From: a virus
Reading direction: 5' to 3' (one strand)
Virus record (IMG/VR): IMGVR_UViG_3300032897_000024
Location: 1 to 27,146 of that record
Length of the DNA stretch: 27,146 nucleotides
Shown here: piece after piece, positions 2,427-23,301 of the stretch
Layout: each line of letters starts with the position of its first letter
Position numbering within the stretch: the stretch's first letter is position 1
Position numbers and translations under genes: made by a program
Notes under the pieces: generated by a model
What the model saw: only the letters and a program-made list of their open reading frames with translations
The model's database searches: none
What the model was told of the DNA's origin: nothing

Positions 2427-2687
2427 ATGAAATCCAAAGAGTCAAAAACATGGTATGAAATTCCAGCGGGTTATAAGGTTGCTAACTTTTGTCGATCATG
2501 TGGCAAAGACTTCGGATCGATGTGGGCTTTTGATTTACATCGTACTGGTAAACCTGGTAATCGTCGCTGTCTCACAGATAAGGAAATGGAGTTAAAAGGA
2601 TTTCATCTAGACTCTAATCATCGATACCGAGCAAAAACAAAGCCTCAAAATCCTTACACCAAAAAGCCCAAAGAAAATGTCGTCTAA
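2427..2687 (+). CDS. FDXHR-type putative zinc-binding phage protein
   Basis: This 86-residue protein carries Cys22-x2-Cys25, FDLHR (35-39, supplying His38) and Cys48, the C-C-H-C arrangement of the small FDXHR zinc-binding proteins found in phages of high-GC Gram-positives and relatives. The C-terminal 30 residues are basic and Pro-rich. The start is supported by GGAG (2416-2419). It is the first gene of the early operon after the attenuator-like leader. The family has no proven function. A nucleic-acid-binding role is inferred from the zinc knuckle and the basic tail. Confidence 0.7.
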   Translation: MKSKESKTWYEIPAGYKVANFCRSCGKDFGSMWAFDLHRTGKPGNRRCLTDKEMELKGFHLDSNHRYRAKTKPQNPYTKKPKENVV

Positions 2688-2745
2688 AGTTACCCAAGTC
2701 CTTGCCGATAAGGAGGAAAACCCCCAATCATTCACCGATGAATAA
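2677..2745 (+). CDS. Possible 22-aa small protein
   Basis: An ATG at 2677 overlaps the end of the zinc-binding gene and opens a 22-codon frame ending at 2745. The peptide begins MSSKVTQVLADKEENPQ and is hydrophilic and acidic. There is no clear ribosome binding site, so expression would depend on coupling to the upstream gene. The frame fills most of the gap before the next gene, but it could be chance. Confidence 0.2.
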   Translation: MSSKVTQVLADKEENPQSFTDE

Positions 2746-2765
2746 AACGAAGGAGAAACCAACCC

Positions 2766-3020
2766 ATGTACGCCTATACCGCTAAACTCACCATTCACCG
2801 CGTCCCTGTATCTCGTCAACCAGTCGAAGAGCCACCAAACGTACTCGCTTTAGGTGAACTGCTCATGAAATATCCGATCTCGCAACGCAAACTGCGAAAG
2901 CTCCATAACATGTGCCAGTTGTTAGCAAAAGACCGAGACTTTCAAGGCGATGAAGTTCTCGGGCACATCTTAGACTGCTTGCAGGATGCGACAAAACCAC
3001 AACTAAGAGTTATCCGATAA
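2766..3020 (+). CDS. Hypothetical early protein, 84 aa
   Basis: This is a small, mainly helical, soluble protein of the early operon. The ATG is preceded by AAGGAG (2749-2754). Residues 27-75 (starting LALGELLMKYPISQRKL) are predicted as three amphipathic helices with a cysteine pair around positions 51 and 71. The N-terminus is strand-like. I recognise no family. Its size and position among other early small genes suggest a host-takeover or anti-defence accessory protein, without direct evidence. Confidence 0.65.
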   Translation: MYAYTAKLTIHRVPVSRQPVEEPPNVLALGELLMKYPISQRKLRKLHNMCQLLAKDRDFQGDEVLGHILDCLQDATKPQLRVIR

Positions 3021-3038
3021 CCAAAAGGAGCGTTATTC

Positions 3039-3254
3039 ATGCTGTACGAAACGGTTGTTGAATACACTGATGCAATTCGTCGCGTCAGAGAGCGCAATAG
3101 ATGCGACAAAAACCAGTTTCTTCGAGCATGTGCCCGATGTGAGAAACGTAATCTTGACACAACAAATCTTTATGCCGTTCGCTTTCATGTTGCTGTACGA
3201 GATGCATTGTTCATCCAGCGATTGAAAGACGAGCGAGAGCAAATCAAGAAATGA
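3039..3254 (+). CDS. Hypothetical early protein, 71 aa
   Basis: This is a short, very basic helical protein with an ATG preceded by AAGGAG. It contains a single CxxC pair (ACARCEKR, residues 30-37) flanked by Arg-rich helices, and it ends in KDEREQIKK. The combination of CxxC and a basic surface hints at nucleic-acid binding, but two cysteines alone would not make a zinc site without dimerisation or another ligand such as Cys23. Its stop is overlapped by an ATG of the next frame (ATGA, 3251-3254). Confidence 0.65.
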   Translation: MLYETVVEYTDAIRRVRERNRCDKNQFLRACARCEKRNLDTTNLYAVRFHVAVRDALFIQRLKDEREQIKK

Positions 3255-3265
3255 GAGAGGAACCT

Positions 3266-3508
3266 ATGCGTATCCCATTTACCCAACAAGTCCAGATTTT
3301 GACCGGCCAGATTATTGGGCAGTCGATCCAGTTGGATGATTTACGCCGACTTAAAATCTCACCTGATCAGAAACATCGGATTGTGTCCGATATCTCAGAG
3401 TCATATACACAGACTCTCAACCAACTCAACGAAGCATTTGCTGATGTTATTGAAACCATGCCACTCCATGTATGTGGCGATGGTCCTATTCCAGAACCAG
3501 ATTGTTAG
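3266..3508 (+). CDS. Hypothetical early protein, 80 aa
   Basis: This is a helical soluble protein with a QQVQILTGQIIGQSIQLDDL N-terminal helix pair and a C-terminal loop ending in GPIPEPDC. I place the start at the ATG at 3266 because AGAGG (3256-3260) is six bases upstream. An ATG at 3251, overlapping the previous stop, would add five residues and is also possible through coupling. No family is recognised. Confidence 0.6.
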   Translation: MRIPFTQQVQILTGQIIGQSIQLDDLRRLKISPDQKHRIVSDISESYTQTLNQLNEAFADVIETMPLHVCGDGPIPEPDC

Positions 3509-3517
3509 GAGAAATCA

Positions 3518-3892
3518 GTGTTTAAACGAATCGTTTTTCTAAGCGCCTGTGTGGCGCCTCATACACCAGGTACGAGCAATGTCTACATCACTGGCGATTT
3601 TAACCAGGACCGTTTTCAATCCATTATATTGCCGTCAGCAAGGCAACTTGCTATTCCACATATCTCATATGTCGGACACGAAGGTACTGCTAAATTTATG
3701 TCCGAAAAGCTCATAATGGATGTCGCATTAAATCGTGCAACTTGGATACCTGAACCCGGAGACTTTTGCGTTTGTTGTCGTTCCATCAAGCGACTAGAAG
3801 AGGGCAGAATTTATACATTTGAGGAAATGGATCCGCTCTTTGAACTGTCTATCATGACTGTCCACTCACTGAACGACATTGAGTTTGTCTAA
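3518..3892 (+). CDS. DUF1874/AcrIII-1-like protein, predicted cyclic-oligoadenylate ring nuclease
   Basis: This 124-residue protein has the landmarks of the DUF1874 family (STIV B116, SIRV1 gp29). A first strand VYITGDF (22-28) is followed by the signature SYVGHEGTA (50-58), a VALNRATW segment (69-76), PEPGDFCVCC (78-87) and KRLEEGRIYTFEEM (91-104). Characterised viral members (AcrIII-1) degrade the type III CRISPR second messenger cyclic tetra-adenylate. The equivalents of the catalytic His and the conserved Arg/Glu appear to be His54, Arg92 and Glu95. The N-terminal 20 residues extend beyond the usual start, and three cysteines replace typical residues in the 84-87 strand. GTG start, AGGAG at 3508-3512. 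It sits among other small early genes, as expected for an anti-defence gene. Enzymatic activity is inferred. Confidence 0.75.
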   Translation: MFKRIVFLSACVAPHTPGTSNVYITGDFNQDRFQSIILPSARQLAIPHISYVGHEGTAKFMSEKLIMDVALNRATWIPEPGDFCVCCRSIKRLEEGRIYTFEEMDPLFELSIMTVHSLNDIEFV

Positions 3893-3908
3893 AAGCCCAG
3901 CCAAGAGG

Positions 3909-3979
3909 CCGCGCGTTTCTTTCGCATCGATGCGCGGACCCTGGCCCACTAAGCACTTCCAGTGTATCACGGAAAGTGC
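3909..3979. other. Structured intergenic segment in the early operon
   Basis: Between the DUF1874 gene and the next start lie a 12-base palindrome CGCATCGATGCG (3923-3934), flanked by GC-rich partial repeats (CCGCGCG and GCGCGG), and a second hairpin GCACTTCC (3953-3960) / GGAAAGTGC (3971-3979). No U-run follows, so they look like RNA processing or stability elements rather than terminators. Confidence 0.4.
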
Positions 3980-4005
3980 AAAGAACGAAACGGAGTTTCA
4001 AACCT

Positions 4006-4299
4006 ATGCAAACACTTGTTGATTTATTAACTGATAGCGCCGCGTTTCTACGTGCTCGTGACGGTAATCAAAATATCATCGACGCTTGCGAAATGGCGAT
4101 TCAGCAAGGCAATCGACTTCTCCATCCTGACCAATACGACGATGAACTGTTGCCATTTGAGCGTGAGGAAGCTGAAGAAACCTGGCAGGAATCCGCACAA
4201 GAGACATTAGCCATTGCGCGTCAAGAAGAAGAACTGTTGATTGATCAGGCTACGCCTCATACAGCAATGATTCCCTGGCAAGAGGATATGGCGTCATGA
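4006..4299 (+). CDS. Hypothetical acidic early protein, 97 aa
   Basis: This is a helical, strongly acidic protein (many Glu/Gln, with segments such as FEREEAEETWQESAQE). I use the ATG at 4006 preceded by GGAG (3991-3994). An in-frame GTG at 3976 lacks a ribosome binding site. It overlaps the next gene by four bases (ATGA at 4296). The high negative charge is compatible with DNA mimicry, a property of many anti-defence proteins, but charge alone is weak evidence. No family is recognised. Confidence 0.6.
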   Translation: MQTLVDLLTDSAAFLRARDGNQNIIDACEMAIQQGNRLLHPDQYDDELLPFEREEAEETWQESAQETLAIARQEEELLIDQATPHTAMIPWQEDMAS

Positions 4300-4598
4300 A
4301 CGAACTTACCTATACCGAATTGTGTGAGAAGTACCGCGTCAATGCAAGATATATCGGCTATCTTCAGGATGGTAATATCGTTCCACTTGATAAAGCTCTT
4401 GAAGAACTTGGAATGGATCTAGATACCTTCCGACGCGTACTTAATGAAGATCTCCTAACCTGCAATGTCGTTACTGAGCCAGGAGCAAAGCCGATTCAAT
4501 GTGTGTTTCTGTGCGATATCAATAAAGCCCGACGTTTCAAAGAAATGCCTTCTGAAGAAGAACTACAAGCATTCTTCGCTGGTGAAACCCAACAATAA
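4296..4598 (+). CDS. Hypothetical early protein, 100 aa
   Basis: The ATG overlaps the upstream stop (ATGA), so the pair is translationally coupled. The N-terminal half is helical (YTELCEKYRVNARYIGYLQD). The centre (NVVTEPGAKPIQCVFLCDIN) is strand-like with two cysteines. The C-terminal helix is acidic. No membrane segment is present and no family is recognised. A hairpin with a T-rich tail follows the stop. Confidence 0.6.
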   Translation: MNELTYTELCEKYRVNARYIGYLQDGNIVPLDKALEELGMDLDTFRRVLNEDLLTCNVVTEPGAKPIQCVFLCDINKARRFKEMPSEEELQAFFAGETQQ

Positions 4599-4606
4599 TT
4601 TCCCCG

Positions 4607-4650
4607 CCTGGTGGTGCACACTGCCAGGCTCTTTCCATCTTTATTTTTAG
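4607..4650 (+). terminator. Weak terminator-like hairpin
   Basis: CCTGG (4607-4611) pairs with CCAGG (4624-4628), with an inner stem containing two G-U pairs. It is followed by a pyrimidine- and T-rich tract ending TTTATTTTT. Because the ribosome binding site of the next gene overlaps the tail, it probably gives partial termination. Confidence 0.4.
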
Positions 4651-4664
4651 GAGTGAACCATCTT

Positions 4665-5663
4665 ATGGACGATGAAAACTTACCAGGAATCCGGCAGATC
4701 TCTGCTGGTATTCGCTGGCTCATTGAACTGCAAATCGTGATAGCCGTACCTGCATTGATGTTTAGTGCAGTGGCGATTGTCGCCAGTGAATTGGCTGGCG
4801 GAGGATTGCTTTCGTCAGATCCAAACTTTGTGTTCGTTACGTCACTAACACAAGCAATAGGCATCGAAGGTGCGTTCTTTTCCAACATGATTCATGCACG
4901 ACAGGCATTTAACAAAAGCCACCATGGACGTGGTACGATCATGATCCTCATCGGCATCATTTTGTGTGTGATAACCGTCTTGGCAATGGTCGCCGGAAAT
5001 TTCGAAAGCGCATTCGGTTTAGATACGAAAGACGCGCTTTTTGCACTTGGCATAAACACCGCCGTTTGGGCATGGATTCGTGCGATTGTCTATGGCATAG
5101 TTTCGTTTGCTGATGCGTATATGTTCTATGTTCCTGCGTCGAAACTCACAGAGCAACAAGTGAAAGATCAAATCGAACAGCAACGATTAAAGTCGCAATT
5201 AGTGCAGGAAAATTCTCGGTTACGTGGCGAGAATCTAAAAGCAAATCTTGGGATTGTTGGGGGAGTAATCGGTCAGGTTGTGGGAAGAAAACCTAGCGAT
5301 TCCACACCAGATAATTCTGTCGATACCACCGATAAAACAACAGAATTATCACCAGAGAATCCGCCCGATTCTCCGCCAGAAAACACCGAGAATTCCACAC
5401 CAGAAAACCAGGAACCACCAGTACCAACACGTCTGATTTCTAACCGTGATATGTGGACCTGGCAAGACTTACAACAATATATTCAATCAACTTATTCCCG
5501 TCCTTTTGCGGAAAAGAAAGCACGCGATATTGTGCGATTTATTGGCAACAACCATCAAGACAATACTCAACGTGGTCAGCCATATGTTGCGGAAAAGAAA
5601 AAGCTTATGGCGTGGTCAAAGAAACAAGACTTCGTACAAGAGCGAGCGGTTTCTAACGAGTAA
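4665..5663 (+). CDS. Multi-pass membrane protein with Pro/Glu/Asn linker
   Basis: This 332-residue protein starts at an ATG preceded by AGGAG (4650-4654). Hydrophobic helices lie at about 20-43, 55-75 (weaker), 90-112 and 124-152. A coiled-coil-like segment (about 160-192, LTEQQVKDQIEQQRLKSQL) follows, then a disordered acidic Pro/Ser/Thr linker with PEN repeats (PENPPDSPPENTENSTPEN) and a C-terminal basic helical domain (about 265-332, TWQDLQQYIQSTYSRPFAEK). The layout is a membrane anchor tethering a cytoplasmic helical domain, possibly DNA-binding. I know no family. As a late member of the early block it could be a superinfection-exclusion or membrane-targeting protein. That is speculation. 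Confidence 0.7.
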   Translation: MDDENLPGIRQISAGIRWLIELQIVIAVPALMFSAVAIVASELAGGGLLSSDPNFVFVTSLTQAIGIEGAFFSNMIHARQAFNKSHHGRGTIMILIGIILCVITVLAMVAGNFESAFGLDTKDALFALGINTAVWAWIRAIVYGIVSFADAYMFYVPASKLTEQQVKDQIEQQRLKSQLVQENSRLRGENLKANLGIVGGVIGQVVGRKPSDSTPDNSVDTTDKTTELSPENPPDSPPENTENSTPENQEPPVPTRLISNRDMWTWQDLQQYIQSTYSRPFAEKKARDIVRFIGNNHQDNTQRGQPYVAEKKKLMAWSKKQDFVQERAVSNE

Positions 5664-5701
5664 TCGCGTGATAAACTGAAAGAAAAAACGAGGAAAAATG
5701 A

Positions 5702-5911
5702 ATGAAAGTATATTGTCCGCTGTGTGGAAATCTTCTTGAAAAACGAGAGACGACTGTATACTTCAAGACGTGCATTATGATTGTATGCAATACATGCACA
5801 CAACATGCAACATGCGATTATCCTGAAAGCAATTCTGTAGTAAACGAAGCTATGGCATACAGGACATATTTGAATTATATTGCCGCGTATATCGTCAATG
5901 CGGCAATATAA
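5702..5911 (+). CDS. Zinc-ribbon-like small protein
   Basis: This 69-residue protein has CPLC (residues 5-8) and CNTC (29-32), a classic two-knuckle zinc ribbon, plus extra cysteines at 24 and 38. The C-terminal 30 residues form a helix rich in Ala/Tyr. The ATG at 5702 follows GAGGA at 5690-5694. It is the last gene of the early operon, directly before the bidirectional terminator. Zinc binding is well supported by the spacing. The partner (nucleic acid or protein) is unknown. Confidence 0.6.
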   Translation: MKVYCPLCGNLLEKRETTVYFKTCIMIVCNTCTQHATCDYPESNSVVNEAMAYRTYLNYIAAYIVNAAI

Positions 5912-19820: not shown

Positions 19821-20462
19821 ATGCAAATAGAAAGAAAATGCATAGTATGTGACAAGTGTTTTACAGCACTGCCTCACGCTATAAAAATTGGTAAGGCTCT
19901 CTATTGCTCTAAATCCTGTGCATCCAAAAATAAACATGGCAACAAGTCTTTTGAGCAACGTTTCTGGGAAAAGGTGAACAAAAGAGAGCCAAATGAATGT
20001 TGGACCTGGACAGGCGCTACTCAAGCCCCATGGCATTATGGTTCTTTTCAACGCGGAATAGGTTCCGATGGTAAAAGTCATTCTGATGTAGCGCATCGAG
20101 TATCCTATGAATTGACCTATGGATGCATTCAGAAGGGACTTTTTGTTTGCCATCGTTGTGATAACCCCCGTTGTGTTAACCCTAATCACTTGTTTCTTGG
20201 GACACACACTGACAACATGCGTGACATGCACCAGAAAAGACGCGGCATGCAGTACACAAAGCCAGAACGCATCACACGTGGTGAACATCAACATCTTGCA
20301 AAACTGACTAGTGATGATATAAAAGCTATTCGCGCTACCTACCAACCTGGTAAAGCGGGGCATAGTAGCGATATGTCTATAGGTGCTTTGGCTAGAAAGT
20401 ACCATGTATCGAAATCTACTATGAACTCGATTATTAAGCGTGAAACATGGAAACATATCTAG
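19821..20462 (+). CDS. HNH homing endonuclease inserted in the head-tail operon
   Basis: This 213-residue protein has an N-terminal CxxC...CxxxC zinc motif (Cys7, Cys10, Cys29, Cys33). An HNH_3-type nuclease core follows (about 90-135): VAHRVSYELTYG, then FVCHRCDNPRCVNPNHLFLG and THTDNM, with His111, Asn/His122-123 and Asn132 as metal and catalytic candidates. The C-terminal helix-turn-helix (about 186-210, SIGALARKYHVSKSTMNSII) would set target specificity. It is the only plus-strand gene in the structural block and has its own promoter. It sits cleanly between two head-tail genes, the typical habit of a free-standing homing endonuclease. Confidence 0.88.
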   Translation: MQIERKCIVCDKCFTALPHAIKIGKALYCSKSCASKNKHGNKSFEQRFWEKVNKREPNECWTWTGATQAPWHYGSFQRGIGSDGKSHSDVAHRVSYELTYGCIQKGLFVCHRCDNPRCVNPNHLFLGTHTDNMRDMHQKRRGMQYTKPERITRGEHQHLAKLTSDDIKAIRATYQPGKAGHSSDMSIGALARKYHVSKSTMNSIIKRETWKHI

Positions 20463-21626: not shown

Positions 21627-22061
21627 CTAGAATGCTCGTGGAATAAGAACCGCCCAAATGGTGCCTGTGGCATTTGCCGTAAAGTCAATCCAAATCGTGT
21701 TATCGAGTTGGATGAATCGGGAAATATCGAGCGGGCCAACAAATGCGGTTCCCGTTGTTGCCGTGATATTTCCCGTCTGGAAATCTCCGAGTCCAGAGCG
21801 AAACGCAGCACCTGCCGTTGCACCACCACCGACGCCAGCTTTGACGGTTAGTTTTGCTGTACCTGCATAAGAATTCGCAAAATACAGAAGTAATCTATCC
21901 GCATTTCCGCCAGCCGGTATCGCTGTTGATGGAATCTGAACATACATTCCGGTTGACTGATTGATTGCAGTACCAGCGTCATTGAGATCCGAAAAAGCAC
22001 CAGCGGGTGTTGAGGCCGTAAGTGTCGATACTGGTATCTGTGTTCGTGTTGCAGTTGACAT
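21627..22061 (-). CDS. Decoration-like capsid protein, paralog 4
   Basis: This is the fourth of four adjacent paralogs. The ATG at 22061 is chosen because GGAGG lies five bases upstream, which gives 144 residues. A TTG at 22079 would place that site inside the gene. Its core aligns with the others: an N-terminal thr/ala segment, GTAINQSTGMYVQIP, then NADRLLLYFANS, LTVKAGVGGGATAGAAFRSG, FVGPLDISRFIQLDNTIWID and IWAVLIPRAF. It is closest to paralog 3, sharing the motif KAGVGGGATxGxAFRSGLGD. It has a short N-terminal extension. Probable surface component of the capsid. Confidence 0.7.
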   Translation of the reverse strand: MSTATRTQIPVSTLTASTPAGAFSDLNDAGTAINQSTGMYVQIPSTAIPAGGNADRLLLYFANSYAGTAKLTVKAGVGGGATAGAAFRSGLGDFQTGNITATTGTAFVGPLDISRFIQLDNTIWIDFTANATGTIWAVLIPRAF

Positions 22062-22082
22062 GATTTCCTCCGCTGCCAATGA

Positions 22083-22490
22083 CTACCAACTGCGTGGCAG
22101 CATGAGCGCTATAATTTTTCCTTGGCTTCCTGCATCAAAGGTCAGATTGATCGTGTTATCGAGTTGGAGATAGCGCGATGGATCGAACGGGCCGACAATG
22201 CCTCCCCCTGAGGCAGCGTGAATTGTTGCCGCTAGATCTCCGAGCCCGCTTCGAAATGCCGGTCCAGGAGTCGCGCCGCCGCCAACACCGGCTTTGACCG
22301 TCAAGACCTGATCAGATGCCGAGTTCGATTGAACAATCAAAACCATTCGGTCAATATTCGGATTAGCAGGAATCGCTGTTGTGGTCAGCGCGATATACAT
22401 CCCGTGCGCTTGATCGATTGCCGTTCCGGACGGGATATCTGTGACACTGTCAGCGGTCAACGTGGTAAGCGGCAGTAAAGTAGCAGTCAT
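22083..22490 (-). CDS. Decoration-like capsid protein, paralog 3
   Basis: This 135-residue protein is directly downstream of paralog 2 (three-base gap), with GGTGG-type ribosome binding bases before the ATG. It is beta-rich with the shared blocks GTAIDQAHGMYIALTTTAIP, DRMVLIVQSNS, LTVKAGVGGGATPGPAFRSG, GGGIVGPFDPSRYLQLDNTI and NLTFDAGSQGKIIALMLPRS. The constant ends and variable middles fit a jelly-roll-like decoration fold. It has no membrane segment. Confidence 0.7.
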   Translation of the reverse strand: MTATLLPLTTLTADSVTDIPSGTAIDQAHGMYIALTTTAIPANPNIDRMVLIVQSNSASDQVLTVKAGVGGGATPGPAFRSGLGDLAATIHAASGGGIVGPFDPSRYLQLDNTINLTFDAGSQGKIIALMLPRSW

Positions 22491-22493
22491 TTC

Positions 22494-22886
22494 TTACCAC
22501 CTCTCCGGGAAGGCATAGGCCCAAATGGCACCAGTGAGCCCAGTCTGGAAGTCCACATTAATAACGCCATTTGCCTGTTCGAAACGGGTTGCTTCCAATG
22601 GTCCGATGATTGCCCCACCTGATGCTGTTGTGACAGTGACTGTTAAATCTCCAGATCCACCCCGATAGGTTGCCGCTCCTGCTCCGCCATTCGGCCCGGA
22701 CTTCACTGTAACAGTTTTGTCTGCTCCTGCCGTGTTTGTGACGTATAAGAAAAGCGTATTCGATGTATCAGGACCAACGGCGGCGGCAACAACAGCACCA
22801 TTCGTTGGATTGATAGCTAATCCGGTAGCAAGATTGGTTTTTCCGTTCTGAGTGAGCACCGTTCGTGCGAGTGCATCTCTTGCCAT
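22494..22886 (-). CDS. Decoration-like capsid protein, paralog 2
   Basis: This 130-residue protein starts at an ATG with GAGAGGAAG upstream. The shared blocks are LAINPTNGAVVAAA, SNTLFLYVTNTAGADKTVTV, GGSGDLTVTVTTASGGAIIG, PLEATRFEQANGVINVDFQT and IWAYAFPERW. It differs most from paralogs 3 and 4 in the loop after the TVK strand (SGPNGGAGAATYRGG). Confidence 0.7.
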   Translation of the reverse strand: MARDALARTVLTQNGKTNLATGLAINPTNGAVVAAAVGPDTSNTLFLYVTNTAGADKTVTVKSGPNGGAGAATYRGGSGDLTVTVTTASGGAIIGPLEATRFEQANGVINVDFQTGLTGAIWAYAFPERW

Positions 22887-22902
22887 TTATGCTTCCTCTC
22901 TC

Positions 22903-23301
22903 CTACCAGCGTGTAGGCCACATAAATGCAGTAATCGTGCCTTGCGAACCAGCATCAAAATCCACCCAAACAGCACCACCAGTTTGTGCAAAACGCGTAA
23001 CCTCTAACGGACCAATCACACAACCGCCAGAAGCGGCATGACAGGTTACTGTCAAATCAGCGCCAGCCGTCCCACCACGAGTAGGAGTTGTTGTTGACGA
23101 GTTACCTTTGACAGTCACAACCTGATCTGATAGTGACGTGCTCTGGATCAGAAGAAACAAATGATCAGCAGTTCCAGCGGCAGGCCCAGCGCCAGGAAGG
23201 GCAATAGCAAAGCCATTGGTTTGGTCAATTGGCGTACCAGTGGGAATGTTAATTCCCGCATTCTGCGTAAGAGCAGTAACAGCCAATGCAGTTCGTCCCA
23301 T
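22903..23301 (-). CDS. Decoration-like capsid protein, paralog 1
   Basis: This 132-residue protein is the first gene after the major capsid protein, the usual place of a head decoration gene. The shared blocks are GTPIDQTNGFAIALPGAGPA, ADHLFLLIQSTSLSDQVVTV, GADLTVTCHAASGGCVIGPL, EVTRFAQTGGAVWVDFDAGS and ITAFMWPTRW. AACAGGA precedes the ATG. The conserved C-terminal aromatic Trp/Arg end is shared with paralogs 2 and 3. Confidence 0.7.
   Translation of the reverse strand: MGRTALAVTALTQNAGINIPTGTPIDQTNGFAIALPGAGPAAGTADHLFLLIQSTSLSDQVVTVKGNSSTTTPTRGGTAGADLTVTCHAASGGCVIGPLEVTRFAQTGGAVWVDFDAGSQGTITAFMWPTRW

Follow-up and report, generated by a model that had tools for sequence, protein, structure and literature searches.

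Gene content of the locus

The window, which is the whole stretch of DNA analysed here, corresponds to a 27,146-base virus record and constitutes a fragment of the genome of an uncultured tailed phage. On its forward strand, we found an intact open reading frame at 3518-3892, which starts with GTG and encodes a product of 124 amino acids, just as the first-pass annotation had described it. A good ribosome-binding site (TTAGGAG) is located 7-8 bases 5' of the GTG at 3518 and the distance to the preceding reading frame (3266-3508, forward strand) is 9 bases. The reading frame at 3518-3892 is a real gene.

This gene is part of a run of small forward-strand genes (2427-5911), which lies back to back with a reverse-strand gene encoding a Cro/C1-type helix-turn-helix repressor (1855-2103; HTH_26, 4.2e-13; transcriptional regulator in PHROGs). 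Judging from this arrangement, the run looks like a phage early operon. A perfect match to a sigma-70-type promoter (TTGACA-18-TATAAT, 12 of 12 bases) is present on the forward strand at 2184-2213 and, as a consensus match, it is likely to be the early promoter of this operon. The window contains five sigma-70-type sites in total, fewer than the mean of 9.0 obtained with shuffled sequences. Adjoining the repressor gene there is also an inverted repeat (1820-1873), with perfectly matching arms of 20 bases and a loop of 14 bases, which probably acts as a terminator or as a site resembling an operator.

The other small genes of the run, all on the forward strand, yielded little in searches of Pfam, PHROGs and PADLOC. 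The product of 2427-2687 weakly matches a phage FDXHR zinc-binding family (PF24071, 1.1e-4, below the cut-off; phrog_7707, 5.6e-6). No family was found for 2766-3020, 3039-3254 and 4006-4299, and no significant one for 3266-3508 and for 4296-4598, which overlaps 4006-4299 by 4 bases. A weak resemblance of the 4296-4598 product to the DUF1874 profile (8 bits; E 0.0073 in a set of 43 proteins) was taken as chance. The first-pass annotation had regarded the neighbours of 3518-3892 as natural anti-defence candidates. What is left of this proposal is their position, as none of them gave a significant defence or anti-defence match in the three collections. A search of Rfam found nothing.

In the remainder of the window lies a structural module of the tailed-phage type, with genes for the major head protein, a minor head protein, a tape measure protein and lysins. 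Inserted between its head-tail genes, and on the opposite strand to the structural genes, is an HNH_3 endonuclease gene (19821-20462, forward strand), which looks like a free-standing homing endonuclease.

Family membership and predicted fold

When the 124-residue protein was searched against Pfam, a single match was obtained, namely STIV_B116-like PF08960 (DUF1874; E 1.1e-10). Its score of 41.9 bits exceeds the curated cut-off of 26 bits and bears out the family assignment of the first-pass annotation. PHROGs placed the protein in phrog_5063 (function unknown, 1.6e-8) and NCBIfam returned no match for it. In PADLOC, it was matched by PDLC01147 (3.3e-10), a profile named Csx16. This profile also recognizes four known DUF1874 viral proteins (1e-13 to 1e-20) and thus it amounts to a DUF1874 profile, the label of which does not tell Csx16 from plain DUF1874 viral proteins. 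We consider a Csx16 identity of the protein a matter of naming, since PDLC01147 matches DUF1874 (AcrIII-1/Crn2) proteins. Automatic defence annotation with this profile will label viral AcrIII-1 proteins as Csx16.

Against a profile built from 17 relatives, from which the window protein was left out, the 124-residue protein scored 54.8 bits, and 1000 shuffles of its own sequence reached at most 4.5 bits. The resemblance to DUF1874 proteins is far beyond chance. Among PDB sequences, phmmer retrieved the Csx1-Crn2 fusion protein (best match, 1.4e-6), AFV3-109, SIRV1 ORF114 and STIV B116. The identity to any relative is 34-37% at most, no close relatives were detected in the viral contigs searched, and the protein forms the longest end branch of the tree, its exact placement being unsure. 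AFV3-109 forms the closest sequence group (25-37% identity) together with homologues of Hydrogenobaculum phage 1, Fusobacterium phage Fnu1 and Vibrio phage Rostov 7. AFV3-109 and most phage homologues carry LN(S/T) at the first strand and have shorter loops, whereas the window protein carries LSA.

For structural modeling with AlphaFold (single chain), an alignment of 18 sequences was needed, as the sequence on its own gave no usable model (pLDDT 33). With the alignment, a pLDDT of 74 and a pTM of 0.70 were reached, residues 12-29 being of low confidence. When this model was compared with the PDB by Foldseek, we found 2j6b (2.0e-6), Csx1-Crn2, 6scf, 2x4i and 2j85, and beyond these only noise. 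DUF1874 structures are its only significant PDB neighbours (seven of the seven entries listed). The Z-scores calculated by VIA-align were 11.9 for 2j6b, which is AFV3-109 and the best structural match (26% identity), 10.5 for 6scf, 10.3 for 8y7g and 9.7 for 2x4i. The model thus shows a DUF1874 fold comparable with that of SIRV1 gp29 (2x4i, 6scf), in line with what the first-pass annotation implied. Best matches in a library of viral models (BFVD) include proteins of phage THSA-485A and STIV.

Two sequence peculiarities suggested at first pass looked different in the 18-sequence alignment. The alleged N-terminal extension amounts to only 2-3 residues compared with the shortest relatives; the starts of the relatives lie within 2-4 residues of that of the window protein and other members begin at the same place. 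As for the cysteine-rich strand, Cys86-Cys87 is indeed distinctive, but Cys84 is common to four relatives (L040, L044, L045 and L047). The actual differences from the relatives are this cysteine pair and an insertion of about 6 residues near positions 25-30.

Catalytic positions and probable function

In the translation, both motifs named in the first-pass annotation can be read, GHEGTA at residues 53-58 and KRLEEGRIYTFEE at residues 91-103, with His, Arg and Glu at positions 54, 92 and 95. Profile alignment to SIRV1 gp29 pairs His54 with His47, Arg73 with Arg66, Arg92 with Arg85 and Glu95 with Glu88, and in the phmmer alignment His54 corresponds to His495 of Csx1-Crn2. Both phmmer and MAFFT place His54 on the catalytic histidine, and Arg92 and Glu95 on the conserved Arg and Glu of the family, so that the conservation claimed for these residues stands. 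The profile alignment also pairs Ser9 with SIRV1 Ser11, which presumably matters for catalysis, and a hydroxyl is therefore still available at the altered LSA strand. The functional weight of the histidine has been documented for both reference enzymes. The H495A mutant of Csx1-Crn2 does not degrade cyclic tetra-adenylate (cA4) (PMC7293037) and the H47A mutant of SIRV1 gp29 is catalytically inactive with retained cA4 binding (PMC7213978).

Nine residues (S50, V52, G53, H54, T57, A58, N72, R73, R92) are invariant in the 18-sequence alignment. Glu95 is invariant in a set of six phage and archaeal-virus members and is lacking in L041, L046 and L048, which form a more remote branch. The proteins of this separate branch, encoded by viral contigs (L041, 5835-6410; L046, 4090-4629; L048, 1362-1931), carry the DUF1874 His motif and NR without R..EG and have C-terminal extensions.

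Taken together, profile, alignment and predicted fold back the first-pass prediction that the 124-residue protein is a phage-encoded AcrIII-1-type ring nuclease removing cA4, and we put the probability of this reading at about 0.8. Cleavage of cyclic oligoadenylates by this protein is predicted from its sequence. The small DUF1874 enzyme, probably a dimer, would be produced from the operon beside the phage repressor, either at an early stage of infection or upon induction. It would bind cA4 synthesized by Cas10 of a host type III CRISPR system and may cleave it in a metal-free reaction, in which His54 would be the general acid and linear A2>P and A2-P the products. The cA4-activated effectors (Csx1/Csm6 and others) would then switch off and the phage would survive. 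Points against the ring-nuclease reading are the high divergence, the LSA strand, the low-confidence residues 12-29 and the absence of the gene from the closest capsid-related contigs.

With SIRV1 gp29 (ORF114), the protein has in common the fold, the viral origin and the His/Arg/Arg/Glu positions. It differs from it by its tailed-phage source (SIRV1 is an archaeal rudivirus), by the loop insertion and the paired cysteines, and the identity over the structure alignment is 12-17%. The Crn2 domain of Marinitoga Csx1-Crn2 (8y6z, 8y7f, 8y7g) shares the KR.EEG.IYT.EEMD motif, but Csx1-Crn2 is a cellular fusion with a cA4-activated ribonuclease, whereas the window protein is stand-alone and viral. 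A bacteriophage counterpart among the model matches is the AcrIII-1 of Thermoanaerobacterium phage THSA-485A (E 4.1e-4), the sequence identity being low (18%). The AcrIII-1 protein of THSA-485A abolishes cA4 immunity in vivo (PMC7371418).

The long branch, the altered N-terminal loop and the low confidence of the model at residues 12-29 would also fit a protein in which fold and ligand site of DUF1874 are preserved, fast catalysis is lost, and cA4 or some other cyclic nucleotide is merely bound or soaked up. Such phage sponges for cyclic nucleotides are known (mentioned in PMC12409355). However, His54, Arg92 and Glu95 have all been kept although about 65-75% of the positions differ from the relatives. 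A pure binder would not need these residues and thus their retention counts against a sponge, which we consider unlikely. Still less probable is a DUF1874 branch of changed specificity, directed for instance at a different cyclic oligonucleotide produced by a type III or a CBASS-like system; the divergent sequence, the loop insertion, the paired cysteines and a phage lineage lacking a characterised relative would be its marks.

DUF1874 enzymes are also found in certain cellular type III loci (PMC7293037, PMC12409355), and a regulator of the Crn2 type that is part of a CRISPR-Cas locus, whether the element carries this locus or has captured it from a host, would tune immunity instead of blocking it. 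As the window is a fragment, such a locus may lie outside of it. Against this origin, the gene sits amid phage early genes beside a repressor, and it lies in a virus record outside any CRISPR locus seen in what was scanned: neither another Cas-type match in the PADLOC-scanned reading frames nor a CRISPR-like repeat array in the scanned parts of the fragment was observed. In favour of an AcrIII-1-type enzyme, viral AcrIII-1 is common and host-type Crn2 rare, with 36 of 28,114 phage genomes versus 7 prokaryotic genomes (PMC12409355). We regard a Crn2-type role as very improbable. The same holds for a DNA-binding or regulatory phage protein lacking ring-nuclease function, a role suggested by two archaeal virus records that label a homologue 'DNA binding protein', since tested family members use the residues conserved here to cleave cA4 (PMC7293037, PMC7213978, PMC7371418).

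Relatives of the phage and distribution of the gene

AcrIII-1 is already established in phages (dozens of them) and the 124-residue protein is a well-supported divergent addition. As a ring nuclease, it would add a divergent group of uncultured tailed phages to the viral AcrIII-1 set known so far, and its presence suggests type III CRISPR signalling in the host. It leaves the known mechanism of the family unchanged and would provide a sequence-diverse enzyme for testing which family residues are truly needed.

No near relative of the phage at the DNA level was found among 50,697 phage records. Searching viral contigs with the major head protein yielded 13 contigs, ten of them at 63-82% identity, and none of the 13 carries a DUF1874 gene. 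The genes common to the compared contigs are those of the structural module, and the repressor is the one early-region gene with a homologue there. Since nearly all of the early region is missing from these contigs, all of which are possible fragments, their lack of the DUF1874 gene would fit gain as well as loss. Viral contigs searched with the early genes 4665-5663 and 633-1031 contained no relatives. In genome contigs, the capsid query retrieved no relative and the CHAP query weak domain matches only. The gene for the major head protein is followed downstream by four tandem paralogous genes on the reverse strand (21627-23301), each encoding about 130-150 amino acids. In most sister contigs, all four paralogues match one and the same place, and thus this family has multiplied in the window phage.
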